Shown one piece after another: positions 4,490-9,548 of a DNA stretch of 10,030 nucleotides (positions are counted from its first letter, which is position 1; each line of letters starts with the position of its first letter). The stretch spans positions 1 to 10,030 of the forward strand of contig CBDUXZ010000037.1 of NCBI GenBank assembly GCA_965371325.1, in the 5' to 3' direction. The notes beneath the pieces were generated by a model. The model was not told where the DNA came from and made no database searches. It saw nothing but the letters and a program-made list of their open reading frames with translations. Position numbers and translations under genes: made by a program. The DNA is from CBDUXZ01 sp965371325 [NCBI: uncultured bacterium] (GTDB taxonomy: Bacteria > JAUYMQ01).

Positions 4490-5515
4490 TCAGAGCGTCC
4501 GGCCGACCGCGTTGGCGAAGCTCTCGAGACCTTCTACAAGCGCCCGGAAGCGCTTGGGCTTTAATGACTGGGGCCCGTCGCTCCAGGCCTTCTCGGGGTG
4601 CGGATGCACCTCGATCATGATGCCGTCGGCGCCACAGGCGATCGCGGCGTAAGCCATCGGCGTGACCCAAGGCCACTCGCCGGTGCCGTGGCTCGGATCG
4701 ACGATCACGGGCAGATGGGTTTTCCCTTTGAGGACGGGCACCGCGTTCAGATCCAGCGTGTTGCGCGTCGCCGTTTCGAAGGTGCGGATGCCGCGCTCGC
4801 AGAGGATCACATCGGGGTTCCCCTCCGAGAGTATGTACTCCGCAGACTGCAGCCATTCCTTGATCGTGGTCGACATGCCCCGCTTCAGAAGGACCGGCTT
4901 GGTGGCTCTCCCGAGCTTCTTCAGGAGCGCGAAGTTCTGGACGTTACGGGCGCCCACCTGGAGGATGTCGGCGTACTCGCTCACGACCCCCACATCGTGG
5001 GGATCCATGATCTCGGTCACGACCGGAAGTCCCGTCTCGTCACGCGCCTCCGCGAGGAGTTTCAATCCCTCGACCTCGAGGCCCTGGAAGGAGTAGGGGC
5101 TCGTGCGCGGTTTGAATGCGCCCCCACGGAGAATGGTTCCGCCCCCTTCCTTCACGGCACGCGCCACCTCGAGGAGTTGCTCACGCCCCTCCACCGAGCA
5201 GGGCCCGGCCATGATCACGAGTTTCTTCCCGCCAACCGTGACACCCTGTCCCACCTTGACCTCGGAGGGCTCCTGCTTGAACTGGCTGCTCGCCAGTTTG
5301 TAGGGCTCGAGGATCGGCATCACACGTTCAACGCCGGACATCGATGGCAACGTCTCGGCGATGACCGATTTGTCCTGGCGCTCATCGCCCACACAACCCA
5401 CCACGGTTCGCTCGACACCGCGGATGAGATGCGCACGGTAGCCCAGCTTTTCCACGGAGCTCACGACCGCGTCGACCTCGTCGTTCGTCGCCCCCGCCTT
5501 CATGACGACAATCAT
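4490..5515 (-). CDS. aroF: DAHP synthase, type I-beta with ferredoxin-like domain
   Basis: 3-deoxy-7-phosphoheptulonate synthase joins phosphoenolpyruvate and erythrose 4-phosphate in the first committed step to chorismate and Phe, Tyr and Trp. The 341-residue protein has an N-terminal ferredoxin-like domain (about 1-67), as in the Thermotoga maritima enzyme, where it mediates feedback inhibition. The TIM barrel follows: GPCSVE (104-109), [16 protein letters not shown] (130-145), KRG (211-213), ERG (240-242), DPSH (273-276) and EVHP (302-305). C106, H276, E302 and D313 match the T. maritima metal ligands Cys102, His272, Glu298 and Asp309 at a constant offset of four. The ATG follows an ideal AAGGAGGT seven bases upstream. 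It is first in the block leading to ileS and lies behind an aromatic-rich leader peptide and attenuator, so transcription is probably controlled by charged tRNA-Phe. Gene naming in this family varies (aroF, aroG, aroA). Confidence 0.96.
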
Positions 5516-5522
5516 TTTCGTT

Positions 5523-5530
5523 ACCTCCTT
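5523..5530 (-). promoter_or_regulatory. Consensus Shine-Dalgarno of DAHP synthase
   Basis: The transcript reads AAGGAGGT seven bases before the ATG at 5515, the strongest ribosome site in the window. It fixes the start and excludes a longer reading frame from 5639 (another frame) as the gene start. A segment 10 bases upstream of it (5540-5549) is perfectly complementary to part of the attenuator at 5710-5719. Confidence 0.9.
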
Positions 5531-5583
5531 CAGTGAACTGGCAGACGGGCTGCTGCTCTTCCTCGGGTTGCCTGGTTTGCGGC

Positions 5584-5618
5584 GGGGCTTCCGCTCCCAC
5601 GCGCGCGGCGGAACCCCC
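5584..5618 (-). other. Stable hairpin in DAHP synthase leader (proximal)
   Basis: In the transcript the arm at 5618-5608 (GGGGGUUCCGC) pairs with the arm at 5594-5584 (GCGGAAGCCCC): ten base pairs with one internal G/G mismatch and an 11-base loop. It lies downstream of the attenuator and about 54 bases before the Shine-Dalgarno. There is no U-tract, so it is not a terminator. Its role is unknown; RNA stabilisation or a translational layer is possible. Confidence 0.5.
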
Positions 5619-5633
5619 GAAGGGATCGAAAGA

Positions 5634-5662
5634 GGCCATAGGGCCGGTCGGCGCCTATGGCC
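5634..5662 (-). other. Perfect 9-bp inverted repeat in DAHP synthase leader
   Basis: GGCCATAGG at 5634-5642 is exactly complementary to CCTATGGCC at 5654-5662, with an 11-base spacer that can add three more pairs. In the transcript it is followed by UCUUUCG, a poor terminator tail. It sits about 20 bases past the attenuator U-tract. It could be a second weak terminator, a stabilising hairpin, or a partner of the attenuator, because its GCCAU can also pair with AUGGC of the terminator's right arm. Confidence 0.5.
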
Positions 5663-5681
5663 TGTCGATTACAAACGCGCG

Positions 5682-5725
5682 AAATAACAAAGCCATGAGC
5701 GACCACCTTCCCGTCTGCCCATGGC
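5682..5725 (-). terminator. Attenuator terminator (3:4 hairpin) before DAHP synthase
   Basis: In the transcript GCCAUGGGC (5725-5717) pairs with GCUCAUGGC (5700-5692): nine pairs, one of them G-U. Past a one-base bulge three more pairs form (GAC 5715-5713 with GUC). The stem is followed directly by UUUGUUAUUUC (5691-5681), a proper intrinsic terminator tail. It lies after the leader peptide stop and about 165 bases before the DAHP synthase ATG, so when formed it should end transcription before the gene. Its left arm overlaps the segment that can pair with the end of the leader peptide coding region. Confidence 0.8.
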
Positions 5726-5796
5726 CCGTTGATCCCGATTTGTGGCGATCAGCGCACCGCGGCAGACCGGCTAAAGCCGAACCCGAACCGCCAGTC
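5710..5796 (-). promoter_or_regulatory. Attenuator pause (1:2) and antiterminator (2:3) pairings
   Basis: Region 1, GACUGGC (5796-5790, over the Asp12-Trp13 codons), pairs with region 2, GCCGGUC (5771-5765): seven pairs with one G-U, holding the last three Phe codons in the loop. Region 2, GUCUGCC (5767-5761), can instead pair perfectly with region 3, GGCAGAC (5719-5713), with two further pairs beyond a mismatch. Region 3 includes the inner left arm of the terminator, so antiterminator and terminator exclude each other. A ribosome stalled at the Phe codons would mask region 1 and allow 2:3 (readthrough). A ribosome reaching the stop would mask region 2 and allow the terminator. Pairings were found by eye without energies. 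Confidence 0.72.
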
Positions 5797-5829
5797 GAAA
5801 TAGAAGCGGCCTGCCATGCGCGTTGTCAT
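5749..5829 (-). CDS. Aromatic-rich leader peptide of DAHP synthase attenuator
   Basis: A 26-codon ORF, starting MTTRMAGR, in which residues 9-19 read FYFDWRFGFGF: Phe at 9, 11, 15, 17 and 19, Tyr at 10 and Trp at 13. Seven of eleven codons are aromatic and five are Phe (four TTC, one TTT). GGGAG lies seven bases before the ATG, and a near-consensus promoter is placed to give a leader of about 34 bases. The TGA stop is 23 bases before the terminator stem. By analogy with the pheA and pheST leader peptides of enterobacteria, its translation speed should report charged tRNA-Phe, with lesser Tyr and Trp input. The peptide itself probably has no function. It is too short for normal gene calling. 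Confidence 0.85.
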   Translation of the reverse strand: MTTRMAGRFYFDWRFGFGFSRSAAVR

Positions 5830-5869
5830 CCACAATCTCCCAAAAGGGTGAATCCCTAATTGTTCCGGC

Positions 5870-5898
5870 AGTGTAGGTACAGGACACCTGCCTGTCAA
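5870..5898 (-). promoter_or_regulatory. Sigma70 promoter for leader peptide and DAHP synthase
   Basis: On the minus strand a perfect -35 TTGACA (5898-5893) is followed by a 17-base spacer and a -10 TACACT (5875-5870, four of six consensus bases). Transcription would begin near 5863, giving an RNA leader of roughly 350 nt to the DAHP synthase ATG and about 34 nt to the leader peptide. The spacer holds weak symmetric sequence (AGGT...ACCT), but I see no clear TrpR or TyrR box. Confidence 0.78.
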
Positions 5899-6016
5899 CC
5901 CGAAAGGCCGGGGGGGATGCGCGGCCCCTACTCCCCGCAGCGGCGCAGGAGGTAGTGTAGGATGTGGGACCCGCCCGCCTGGGCGCTTCCAATCCCGGCA
6001 CGCCGAGGTCCGGATC

Positions 6017-6298
6017 ATGAAAGTTTCGGGAAAGCAGATTGAGCAGATCGCCGCGGCTATCACGGAGGGGCTCGTGGTGGGGGGCTTCGCCCGGCCGCGG
6101 GGCGAGCGCGCGGACCTGGAAGCCGCCATCAGCAATGCGCTGCGGACCGACCTCGAAGCGGAAGGGGCGCTTGACCGTGAGGTCGAGAGCCTCCTGCAGC
6201 AACACGCGGACCGGCTCGACGCCGAAGGGGCCGACTACCGCCGCATGTTCGCGATGCTCAAGAAAAAGCTCGCCCGCGACCGGGGCATCGTGCTCTAA
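6017..6298 (+). CDS. DUF507 family protein (paralogue 1)
   Basis: A 93-residue, highly charged, helical, soluble protein recognised as DUF507. It has the family pattern of an MKxSxKQIExIA start, a middle DLEAE...LDREVESLLQQH segment, then EGADYRRMFAMLKKKLARDRGIVL at the end (about residues 70-93). No enzyme motif, signal peptide or membrane segment is visible, and the family function is not established. The ATG follows GAGG at eight bases. It is divergent from the DAHP synthase leader and converges on the RRM gene with only 10 bases between stops. No clear promoter was seen upstream. The second DUF507 gene lies about 3 kb away; the two resemble different subtypes of the family rather than a recent duplication. 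Confidence 0.88.
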   Translation: MKVSGKQIEQIAAAITEGLVVGGFARPRGERADLEAAISNALRTDLEAEGALDREVESLLQQHADRLDAEGADYRRMFAMLKKKLARDRGIVL

Positions 6299-6812: not shown

Positions 6813-7367
6813 TCATCCGACGGAAGGTCCCCCCCTCATTGCTTCTTTGCGAATTCCCTCGAGCATCACCCGGCGAATGAGCCCGCTGGCACCCCGAATG
6901 AGCGTCCAGTAGGTCGCGAAGAGCGCCAGGGTCACCCGGTCGGCGCACCGAACACGGGTCTCGGTGGAGAGCCGGGCGCCCCCGTCAGCCAGGGGATCGA
7001 CACGCAGGTTCGCGGCAATCTTGATCGTCCGCCGGGTGGAGAGCGTGCGAAAGTCAGAGGGGGTGTGGACCTCTACCGGGGCCATGAACCTTCCCCGCGA
7101 AAACAGGGCCGCGGCCAGGCCGAACACGACCTCGCGTCCCGGCTGCTCGCCGAGGATTGCGAAATCGATCGCCCGAAGTGATTTGCGGAAGGTCCCCGGC
7201 GGCGGGAGGCCGCGAAGCCGGAAGAGAATCCGGATGGTGGGCGATTCGTTCAGCCGGTAGGTGTCGGCGGCCTCATAGACCCGGCCGGGGGGGGCGGCCA
7301 CCGTGATCGCGTGGCGGTGCCCGAAATCAAATTCGGAGAGGCAGTCGTCGAGAATCGATGCCGGCAT
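6813..7367 (-). CDS. SRPBCC-like (START fold) protein of unknown function
   Basis: A 184-residue protein that reads like a short SRPBCC/polyketide-cyclase-like domain: an opening beta strand and helix with the typical FGHRHAITVAAPPGRVYEAADT (residues 15-36), a run of strands (78-140), then STETRVRCADRVTLALFATYWTLIRGASGLIRR (134-166) in a closing amphipathic helix. Such folds bind hydrophobic ligands; no ligand or enzyme activity can be read here. There is no signal peptide. The ATG at 7367 lies 13 bases after the stop of the VIT-like gene; its ribosome site is weak. A GTG at 7406 would overlap that gene and was not chosen. It is third in a compact operon with the TPR and VIT-like genes. A hairpin (ACCTTC/GAAGGT, 6809-6828) overlaps the stop but lacks a U-tract. 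Confidence 0.7.
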   Translation of the reverse strand: MPASILDDCLSEFDFGHRHAITVAAPPGRVYEAADTYRLNESPTIRILFRLRGLPPPGTFRKSLRAIDFAILGEQPGREVVFGLAAALFSRGRFMAPVEVHTPSDFRTLSTRRTIKIAANLRVDPLADGGARLSTETRVRCADRVTLALFATYWTLIRGASGLIRRVMLEGIRKEAMRGGPSVG

Positions 7368-9266: not shown

Positions 9267-9281
9267 GAATCCGGAGTGGGC

Positions 9282-9548
9282 GTGCAGCTTTCGGACGATC
9301 GCATCGCGCATTTATCGCACCAGATCCTCGCGCGGCTGAGGCCCCTGGCCGAAATTCCGGTCGAGGAACGCGCGCTGAGGGAAATCAAACGCTGCATGAT
9401 CGCGGTGCTGAAGGAAGACGACGTGATAGACGCACTTGCTCGGCGGAAGATTGCATCACTCAAGCGTGGCGTTCCCGAGGGAGGGAACGAGTGGGATATC
9501 CTCTACCGTAAGTATTATGATGAGGAGGCCGCCCGCAGGAGACGCTGA
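9282..9548 (+). CDS. DUF507 family protein (paralogue 2)
   Basis: An 88-residue charged, helical protein of the DUF507 family: opening xQLSDDRIAHLSHQIL, then an AVLKEDDVIDALARRKIASLKRGVPEGGNEWDILYRKYYDEE core (about residues 47-84) and an arginine-rich end. The RKIASL...VPEG..EWD.LYRKY motif is typical of one of two DUF507 subtypes that I recall occurring together in deltaproteobacteria; function is unknown. GTG at 9282 is chosen because GGAG lies five bases before it and the family starts M-x-L-S. The in-frame GTG at 9276 lies within that ribosome site. It is followed by an intrinsic terminator, then argH, so it is probably a single-gene transcript. It is divergent from the TPR gene. Confidence 0.88.
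   Translation: MQLSDDRIAHLSHQILARLRPLAEIPVEERALREIKRCMIAVLKEDDVIDALARRKIASLKRGVPEGGNEWDILYRKYYDEEAARRRR

Follow-up and report, generated by a model that had tools for sequence, protein, structure and literature searches.

The pheA, pheST and trp leaders of enterobacteria are composed of four segments with a single terminator. The his leader comprises six, where the pairings A:B, C:D and E:F give termination and B:C and D:E give read-through. Attenuators are usually regarded as built anew for each operon, the enterobacterial trp, his, phe and leu leaders being unlike in sequence. For the his operon leader of Salmonella and E. coli, two alternative structures and seven His are described (PMC3896937). 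AroR-aroF of Corynebacterium glutamicum (Neshat et al. 2014) is treated in PMC11802643, PMC4046766 and PMC7356990; according to the first of these, Phe limitation raises expression and Tyr availability is without effect. Weinberg et al. 2010 list the candidate RNAs Bacteroid-trp and pheA, for Bacteroidetes and for Actinobacteria (PMC2864571), and leader peptide systems were in 2010 known only in Proteobacteria and Actinobacteria, as stated in PMC2965389. A search of open-access papers yielded no description of an attenuator of this kind for Geobacter, Deltaproteobacteria or Rokubacteria.

The window analysed here, a stretch of 10,030 nt, carries upstream of a DAHP synthase gene an element that is in all likelihood a ribosome-mediated transcription attenuator, controlling this gene by charged tRNA-Phe, perhaps also by Tyr and Trp, through a six-segment relay. 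What is shown comprises its anatomy, the aromatic leader, the covariation of four pairings in relatives and, in simulation, a switch of hairpin A when just made; that transcription terminates, which signal is sensed and that the relay operates in the window are what we infer. The nearest precedent is AroR-aroF by function and the six-segment his leader by layout. By description, AroR-aroF resembles the window in its Phe-Tyr-Phe leader peptide, its DAHP synthase gene, the ribosome-mediated attenuation and the answer to Phe limitation, but it belongs to another phylum, and the sources used mention neither a relay nor tandem hairpins. The Bacteroid-trp and pheA motifs, likewise set beside the window by description, were found by comparison and bear names that point to aromatic amino acid genes. 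The his leader has the same pairing parity as the proposed relay, with seven His as sensor in place of Phe/aromatic codons. Unlike in the his leader, a U run mostly follows the middle hairpin outside Candidatus Rokuibacteriota (the phylum of L045), and the hairpin cores change in step. The pheA, pheST and trp leaders share with the window a peptide rich in the regulating amino acid and the competition of terminator and antiterminator. The features of the locus are as follows.

5893–5898 (−): −35 hexamer TTGACA (sequence, promoter scan)
5870–5875 (−): −10 hexamer TACACT, 17-nt spacer to the −35 hexamer (sequence, promoter scan)
5837–5841 (−): GGGAG, likely ribosome site of the leader ORF (sequence)
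5749–5829 (−): leader ORF MTTRMAGRFYFDWRFGFGFSRSAAVR plus stop, 26 codons, second in-frame ATG at codon 5 (sequence, shuffles, stall simulation)
5790–5796 (−): segment 1, GACTGGC, with 5771–5765 as partner (sequence, stall simulation)
5761–5771 (−): segment 2, GCCGGTCTGCC, of which 5771–5765 pairs with segment 1 and 5767–5761 with segment 3 (sequence, alignment)
5713–5725 (−): segment 3, GCCATGGGCAGAC, 5′ arm of hairpin A, its tail pairing with segment 2 (sequence, alignment)
5692–5700 (−): segment 4, GCTCATGGC, 3′ arm of hairpin A, pairing with segment 5 possible (simulation, alignment)
5681–5691 (−): U-rich tail of hairpin A, TTTGTTATTTC (sequence, U-run count)
5654–5663 (−): segment 5, AGGCCATAGG, 5′ arm of hairpin B (simulation, alignment)
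5633–5642 (−): segment 6, CCTATGGCCT, 3′ arm of hairpin B (simulation, alignment)
5625–5632 (−): tail of hairpin B, CTTTCGAT, a weak U run (sequence, U-run count)
5625–5776 (−): whole RNA element, extent from a covariance model with the window excluded, E 9.9e-11 (rough)
5524–5530 (−): AAGGAGG, ribosome site of the DAHP synthase gene (sequence)
4490–5515 (−): type I-beta DAHP synthase with N-terminal ferredoxin-like domain, PF00793 and PF18152 (Pfam)

The earlier note had proposed a phenylalanine-type attenuator at this site, and its individual claims about the window were recovered: the TTGACA-17-TACACT promoter is present on the minus strand at 5898–5870, the 26-codon leader ORF follows with its ribosome site and seven aromatics in 11 codons, and the pairings 1:2 and 2:3 and the nine-pair hairpin (3:4) agree to the base. 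The enzyme is indeed a type I-beta DAHP synthase, Pfam detecting both DAHP_synth_1 (PF00793, E 9.8e-84) and the N-terminal ferredoxin-like domain (PF18152, E 6.1e-23). As to the extent of the element, the segments listed in that note hold, but the element runs on to 5625 and includes a second hairpin, B, absent from the list. Similarly, the comparison to ribosome-mediated attenuation in enterobacteria is retained for attenuation as such, whereas the plain trp/pheA layout gives way to six segments with a second hairpin and a relay. The earlier reading was thus right in substance, and missed the relay and the membership in a family of attenuators on many genes.

The promoter scan returned TTGACA-17-TACACT as the sole promoter-like site in 5500–6000 (shuffles 0.0 ± 0.2). 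The 600 nt upstream of the gene were shuffled 5000 times with dinucleotide content preserved: none of the shuffles reached seven aromatics in 12 codons, the number of the window leader, and 5 of 5000 held six. The best antisense score was two.

Pairing 1:2 connects GACTGGC (5796–5790) with GCCGGTC (5771–5765) by seven pairs including one G-U, and pairing 2:3 connects GTCTGCC (5767–5761) with GGCAGAC (5719–5713), again by seven pairs. Hairpin A is formed from GCCATGGGC (5725–5717) and GCTCATGGC (5700–5692), with nine pairs (one G-U) and a 16-nt loop, and is followed by TTTGTTATTTC. The additional hairpin B joins AGGCCATAGG (5663–5654) to CCTATGGCCT (5642–5633) by ten Watson-Crick pairs. The 5′ arm of hairpin B can also pair with the 3′ arm of hairpin A (the relay, 4:5); in the window nine of the ten relay pairs form, two of them G-U, leaving one mismatch. 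The leader RNA is more stably folded than its shuffles (z −2.39), of which 3 of 200 were equally good.

A strict terminator scan (loop 3–8) of 5500–6000 found no terminator, the loop of hairpin A being 16 nt. Moreover, the tail of hairpin B is U-poor in the window (5 T of 10, as compared to 8 of 10 after hairpin A), and hairpin B ends about 95 nt upstream of the DAHP synthase ribosome site. Such features would suit a leader that acts on translation or via Rho (polarity, ribosome shielding), with hairpins that serve RNA stability. We regard this reading as very improbable, as neither hairpin covers the ribosome site at 5530–5524 and U runs follow the hairpins in relatives (A 34/38 and B 30/38 outside the phylum of L045; B 34/35 inside).

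Because pairing 2:3, both hairpins and the relay covary in relatives, the element is read as a six-segment relay like the his leader. With ample aromatic amino acids, the ribosome would run to the leader stop and cover segment 2. Hairpin A (3:4) would fold first and hairpin B (5:6) after it, and transcription would end at one or both of them. Conversely, a ribosome stalled on the FYFDWRF codons would cover segment 1 and leave segment 2 free to pair with segment 3, whereby hairpin A would come too late to form and segment 4 would be released. Pairing of segment 4 with segment 5 before segment 6 is made would then hold back hairpin B, and the polymerase would read into the gene.

The switch was simulated by folding the RNA while all bases shielded by a halted ribosome, taken to reach up to 12 nt beyond the A-site codon, were held single-stranded, pairing 2:3 being zero at the stop by construction. 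In RNA truncated right after hairpin A, placing the ribosome on the sensor codons freed the antiterminator among the mutually exclusive pairings in silico. Stalls at codons 9–16 (FYFDWRFG) brought the just-made hairpin A to 0.27, 0.09, 0.02, 0.03, 0.03, 0.11, 0.11 and 0.15, respectively; it amounted to 0.88 with the ribosome at codon 17, to 0.99–1.00 from codon 18 to the stop and to 0.98 in the absence of a ribosome. Early stalls lowered hairpin A too (0.38 at codon 1, 0.08 at codon 2, 0.55–0.77 at codons 3–8). According to the simulation, the codons that matter as sensors are F9, Y10, F11, W13 and F15, and F17 and F19 lie too far downstream; cross-sensing of Tyr and Trp is allowed by the model, stalls at Y10 and W13 also opening hairpin A. 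Only one of 400 synonymous recodings of the leader gave an equally low value under stall (mean 0.948, native 0.106), which indicates that the codon choice of the leader carries the antiterminator.

In the full-length RNA at equilibrium, hairpin A was back at 0.73–0.97 for stalls at codons 9–13 and 16, and at 0.33 only for codons 14–15. As hairpin A returns under most stalls, the switch depends on timing. The response of the second hairpin in the window was small: the relay reached 0.23 under stall in a simulation that covered 74 loci, with hairpin B remaining at 0.99, and a longer RNA stalled at codons 14–15 gave 0.48 for the relay and 0.37 for hairpin B. Taken for the window by itself, these values would fit a plain four-segment attenuator with hairpin A as sole terminator, where hairpin B is unrelated or a backup devoid of a control role. 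Hairpin A has the better U tail (8 T of 10, as against 5) and alone switches clearly when just made, and hairpin B hardly responds at equilibrium. On the other hand, a hairpin B that terminates independently would block the gene regardless of the ribosome, and the relatives described below speak for a coupled pair of hairpins; we consider the four-segment layout unlikely.

Loci for comparison were collected by a scan of genome contigs (80 loci), by whole-genome searches and from 95 regions taken from part of the matches, resulting in a total of 229, of which 223 unique loci of at least 300 nt were used for the leader count. The earlier note had proposed a search for aromatic mini-ORFs and compensating changes in related genomes. 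At least seven aromatics in 12 codons were present in 78 of the 223 upstream regions, as compared to 12 of 4460 shuffles and 1 of 223 antisense regions. Relatives lacking the mini-ORF had been named there as evidence to the contrary, and 105 of the 223 regions, about half, indeed fall below five aromatics in 12 codons and lack such a leader; among them are L006, whose genome gave the best match to the IleS of the window, and L082. Judged from the sequences, the aromatic leader is real and common among relatives, albeit not universal. Compensating changes were found as well: across the 42 aligned loci, 98.2% of the cells of 2:3 hold a pair, as do 92.5% of those of hairpin A, and five of the hairpin A pairs have both partners changed.

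A leader score of at least 5 was obtained for 118 rows (window included), 115 of them with a hairpin. The score cut-offs, one of which is 2:3 pairing itself, were passed by 74 loci (56 unique); 17 of the 74 were removed by hand for doubtful hairpins, near-duplicates were pruned to 45, and 42 hand-picked loci were aligned. Geomonas leaders stand outside the alignment, the automatic extraction having chosen another hairpin there. Geobacter-type leader peptides end in FYFWYGFYFRPSARVEV or similar, close to FYFDWRFGFGFSRSAAVR in the window. After the aromatic codons many relatives carry GTCTGCCC or GTCCGCCC, and after the stop many carry GGGCAGAC or GGGCGGAC, inside the 5′ arm of hairpin A. The motif GTCYGCC is present in 62 of the 74 leaders; relative to the leader frame, 44 have it in phase 0, 17 in phase 2 and one in phase 1, and its occurrence in several phases implies that it is kept as RNA rather than as peptide.

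Aromatic leaders of a different make precede the same enzyme in Poribacteria (L054, L060, L061, L063–L065, L067, L068, L070, L073–L075, L078 and L079) and in Acidobacteriota (L058, L071 and L072). Examples are LYLYLYLY and SFWYWGF, and a U-tailed hairpin was seen in those inspected. The attenuators of these two groups are seemingly independent of the window type. In L137 (296–461) and L141 (417–592), cobalamin riboswitches above the gathering score are located upstream of the leader and directed away from the DAHP synthase gene.

Most relatives that pass the cut-offs have two tandem hairpins with a similar core, which varies by group (GCCATGGG, GCCGCGGG, GCCGTGGG, GCCACGGG or GCCGGGG). In the 42 hand-picked loci, whose statistics are uncorrected for relatedness, 94.7% of the cells of hairpins A and B hold a pair, both partners have changed in 12 of the 20 pairs, and doubly changed cells number 106 as compared to 31 in shuffles. 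Pairing 2:3 (98.2%) and the relay 4:5 (87.4%) are jointly paired in 92.1% of cells, a value that drops to 30–53% when the partners are slid by 1–3 columns. The relay pair 108–154 is GC in 17 loci, AU in 15 and CG in 10, and broken in none, and columns 82, 108, 154 and 172 change in step. For 2:3 and the relay, pairs changed on both sides and further pair types were not above shuffles, 421 and 491 of 500 shuffles matching the observed values. The relay duplex is more stable with its own partners (−18.5) than with permuted ones (−14.6 ± 0.4; 0/5000) across the 56 unique loci, kinship being uncorrected. Segment 3:6 pairing also beats permutations, as the shared A/B core requires, and owing to this core it is indistinguishable from 4:5 by sequence. 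The support for 2:3 is given by the alignment counts, as the permutation test is biased by segment 2 having been chosen for its own fit. In 44 loci from the regions surveyed below, none of which entered the model, 2:3 and the relay are paired in 91.0% of cells (28–49% in slides); hairpins A and B reach 97.6% there, in an alignment fitted to A and B.

In the stall simulation of the 74 loci, hairpin A decreased from a mean of 0.97 to 0.43 (by at least 0.3 in 46), and the relay, just before hairpin B is complete, increased from 0.28 to 0.74 (by at least 0.3 in 47). Hairpin B at equilibrium fell by at least 0.3 in only 13 of the 74, from which it follows that the relay needs a kinetic order, to which equilibrium folding is blind. 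The relay covaries in the family; in the window it is weak, with little loss of hairpin B in simulation. Loci were assigned to the phylum of L045 by their search of origin. Inside this phylum, at least five T in ten follow hairpin A in 3 of 35 loci and hairpin B in 34 of 35; outside it, hairpin A in 34 of 38 and hairpin B in 30 of 38. With a U run at hairpin B only, hairpin A would act through B in that phylum, i.e. via the relay, and is by the look of its tails unlikely to end transcription itself. Accordingly, the four-segment layout is at odds with the U runs of this phylum, with the relay energy (0/5000 permutations), and with hairpins A and B sharing a core and changing together between groups, pair 108–154 never being broken in the 42 loci.

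A covariance model of 41 loci with the window excluded (R2) located the element at 5776–5625 with E 9.9e-11 (rough calibration), the sole match in the 10 kb at E <= 10. This match bears on the notion that a Phe-rich short ORF and fortuitous inverted repeats met by chance in G+C-rich DNA. Short ORFs and hairpins are common, and equally rich mini-ORFs did arise in 12 of 4460 shuffles of related regions. Opposed to this are the independent model match (E 9.9e-11), 0/5000 shuffles of the window, 1/400 recodings, the stall switch and the covariation. Chance, or plain composition, was rejected on the shuffles, the synonymous recodings and the model match, and its probability is negligible.

A second model (R1) was built from 42 loci with the window as one of them. 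At E <= 0.01 it has matches in 78 of the 94 genomes from the phylum of L045 and in 213 of the 297 from that of L006; by hand count, 71/94 and 144/297, respectively, also pass 1e-5. In the phylum of L016 (Nitrospirota), 2 of 148 genomes were matched at the stricter E <= 1e-5. Up to seven R1 matches were counted per genome, some of them perhaps antisense echoes of one and the same hairpins, but those of G038 fall at six separate places. When the element was compared to Rfam in the window, in 15 relatives upstream of DAHP synthase genes and in 10 upstream of other genes, no family attained its gathering score, and a known Rfam family or riboswitch, including Phe_leader and Trp_leader, was rejected on these grounds. 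In some relatives the element overlaps with weaker Rfam matches that stay under the gathering score (BjrC1505, ar7, BjrC68, SorX and others). A T-box riboswitch was likewise rejected, with no T-box match at E <= 1 in the window. Elsewhere in the window, at 7145–7077 (−), a guanidine-II riboswitch match scored 23.2 bits, below the gathering score of 32.

The genes behind the same RNA were surveyed in 60 regions, a non-random sample fetched from the higher-scoring part of the model matches and chosen away from DAHP genes already listed, except L289; several turned out to be further DAHP genes. NCBIfam was run on 40 of the 60 downstream proteins, trimmed to at most 330 aa, so that full-length cut-offs were often missed, and placed 31 of the 40 at E <= 1e-20: ADH synthase (8), pyruvate phosphate dikinase (PPDK, 4), trpE (4), TrpB-like (3), phenylacetate-CoA ligase (3), DAHP synthase I-beta (2) and I-alpha (1), sigma-54 regulators (2), and one each of ilvB, leuB, acyl-CoA dehydrogenase and malate-synthase-like. 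Nine were without an NCBIfam match; seven of these were run on Pfam, which gave five periplasmic binding proteins, one acetyltransferase and one Phenol_MetA_deg. Sensor classes were called by weights of our own as the best of several ORFs. Phe/Tyr leaders precede 8/8 ADH synthases, 3/3 phenylacetate-CoA ligases and 3/3 DAHP synthases, Trp leaders precede 4/4 trpE and 2/3 TrpB-like genes, and Leu/Ile/Val leaders precede ilvB, leuB, 4/4 PPDK and 2/2 sigma-54 regulators, these last calls being the weakest since Leu, Ile and Val are common residues. The mean distance from sensor to segment 2 ranges from 4.3 to 11.4 codons. At two TrpB-like loci segment 2 is very different (GATTTGTC, picked for fit) and segment 3 is altered to match (GGCAAATC, GACAAATC).

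Taken together, it is probable that a single homologous chassis was copied repeatedly within genomes of two or more phyla, the copies receiving different sensor codons. This chassis would comprise segment 2 GTCYGCC, segment 3 GGGCRGAC and twin hairpins with a common core and the relay between them. Phe/Tyr codons would stand before DAHP and ADH synthases, phenylacetate-CoA ligase and periplasmic binding proteins, Trp codons before trpE and a trpB-like gene, and Leu/Val/Ile codons before ilvB, leuB, PPDK and sigma-54 regulators. If true, this would be a modular class of regulatory RNA with the ribosome as exchangeable receptor and several copies per genome. It would then be possible to tell from sequence which amino acid governs a large number of unstudied genes in large uncultured groups, including genes with no known link to amino acids such as PPDK (Leu-rich) and phenylacetate-CoA ligase (Phe-rich). 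The class would also allow the coupling of two terminators through a relay helix to be put to the test, in a design where the codons alone set the input.

In L233, L234, L236 and L241, all from the phylum of L045, Leu-rich leaders (LSLGLILLALPGLPGASAK and similar) on the same chassis precede pyruvate phosphate dikinase, which is an odd target for amino acid attenuation. Leu-rich leaders are also found in L235, L237, L242 and L243, where the enzyme was recognized by its N-terminus alone. Phe-rich leaders precede phenylacetate-CoA ligase in L255, L261 and L266 (and in L263, by N-terminus alone), which suggests that this ligase may answer to Phe supply; it perhaps belongs to a route from arylacetates to amino acids. 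Val-rich leaders (SVVVAVV) in L238 and L239 precede sigma-54 dependent regulators, i.e. an attenuator on a regulator gene, and the call of the regulator gene in L238 may start late.

The best protein relatives of the window are 67–68% for the DAHP synthase and 57% for IleS (the L006 genome). The order DAHP synthase–ileS of the window was not seen in the loci of relatives; in L096 and L105 ileS is near but directed away. Two short genes of the window match DUF507 (PF04368): 6017–6298 (+) corresponds to its first half (1–93) and 9276–9548 (+), about 3 kb from the first, to its second half (90–180). Homologues of the second DUF507 gene accompany the DAHP synthase gene in L026 and, among the 11 loci of the class of L026 (L125–L134, where L133 is the same place as L026), are found nearby in 10.
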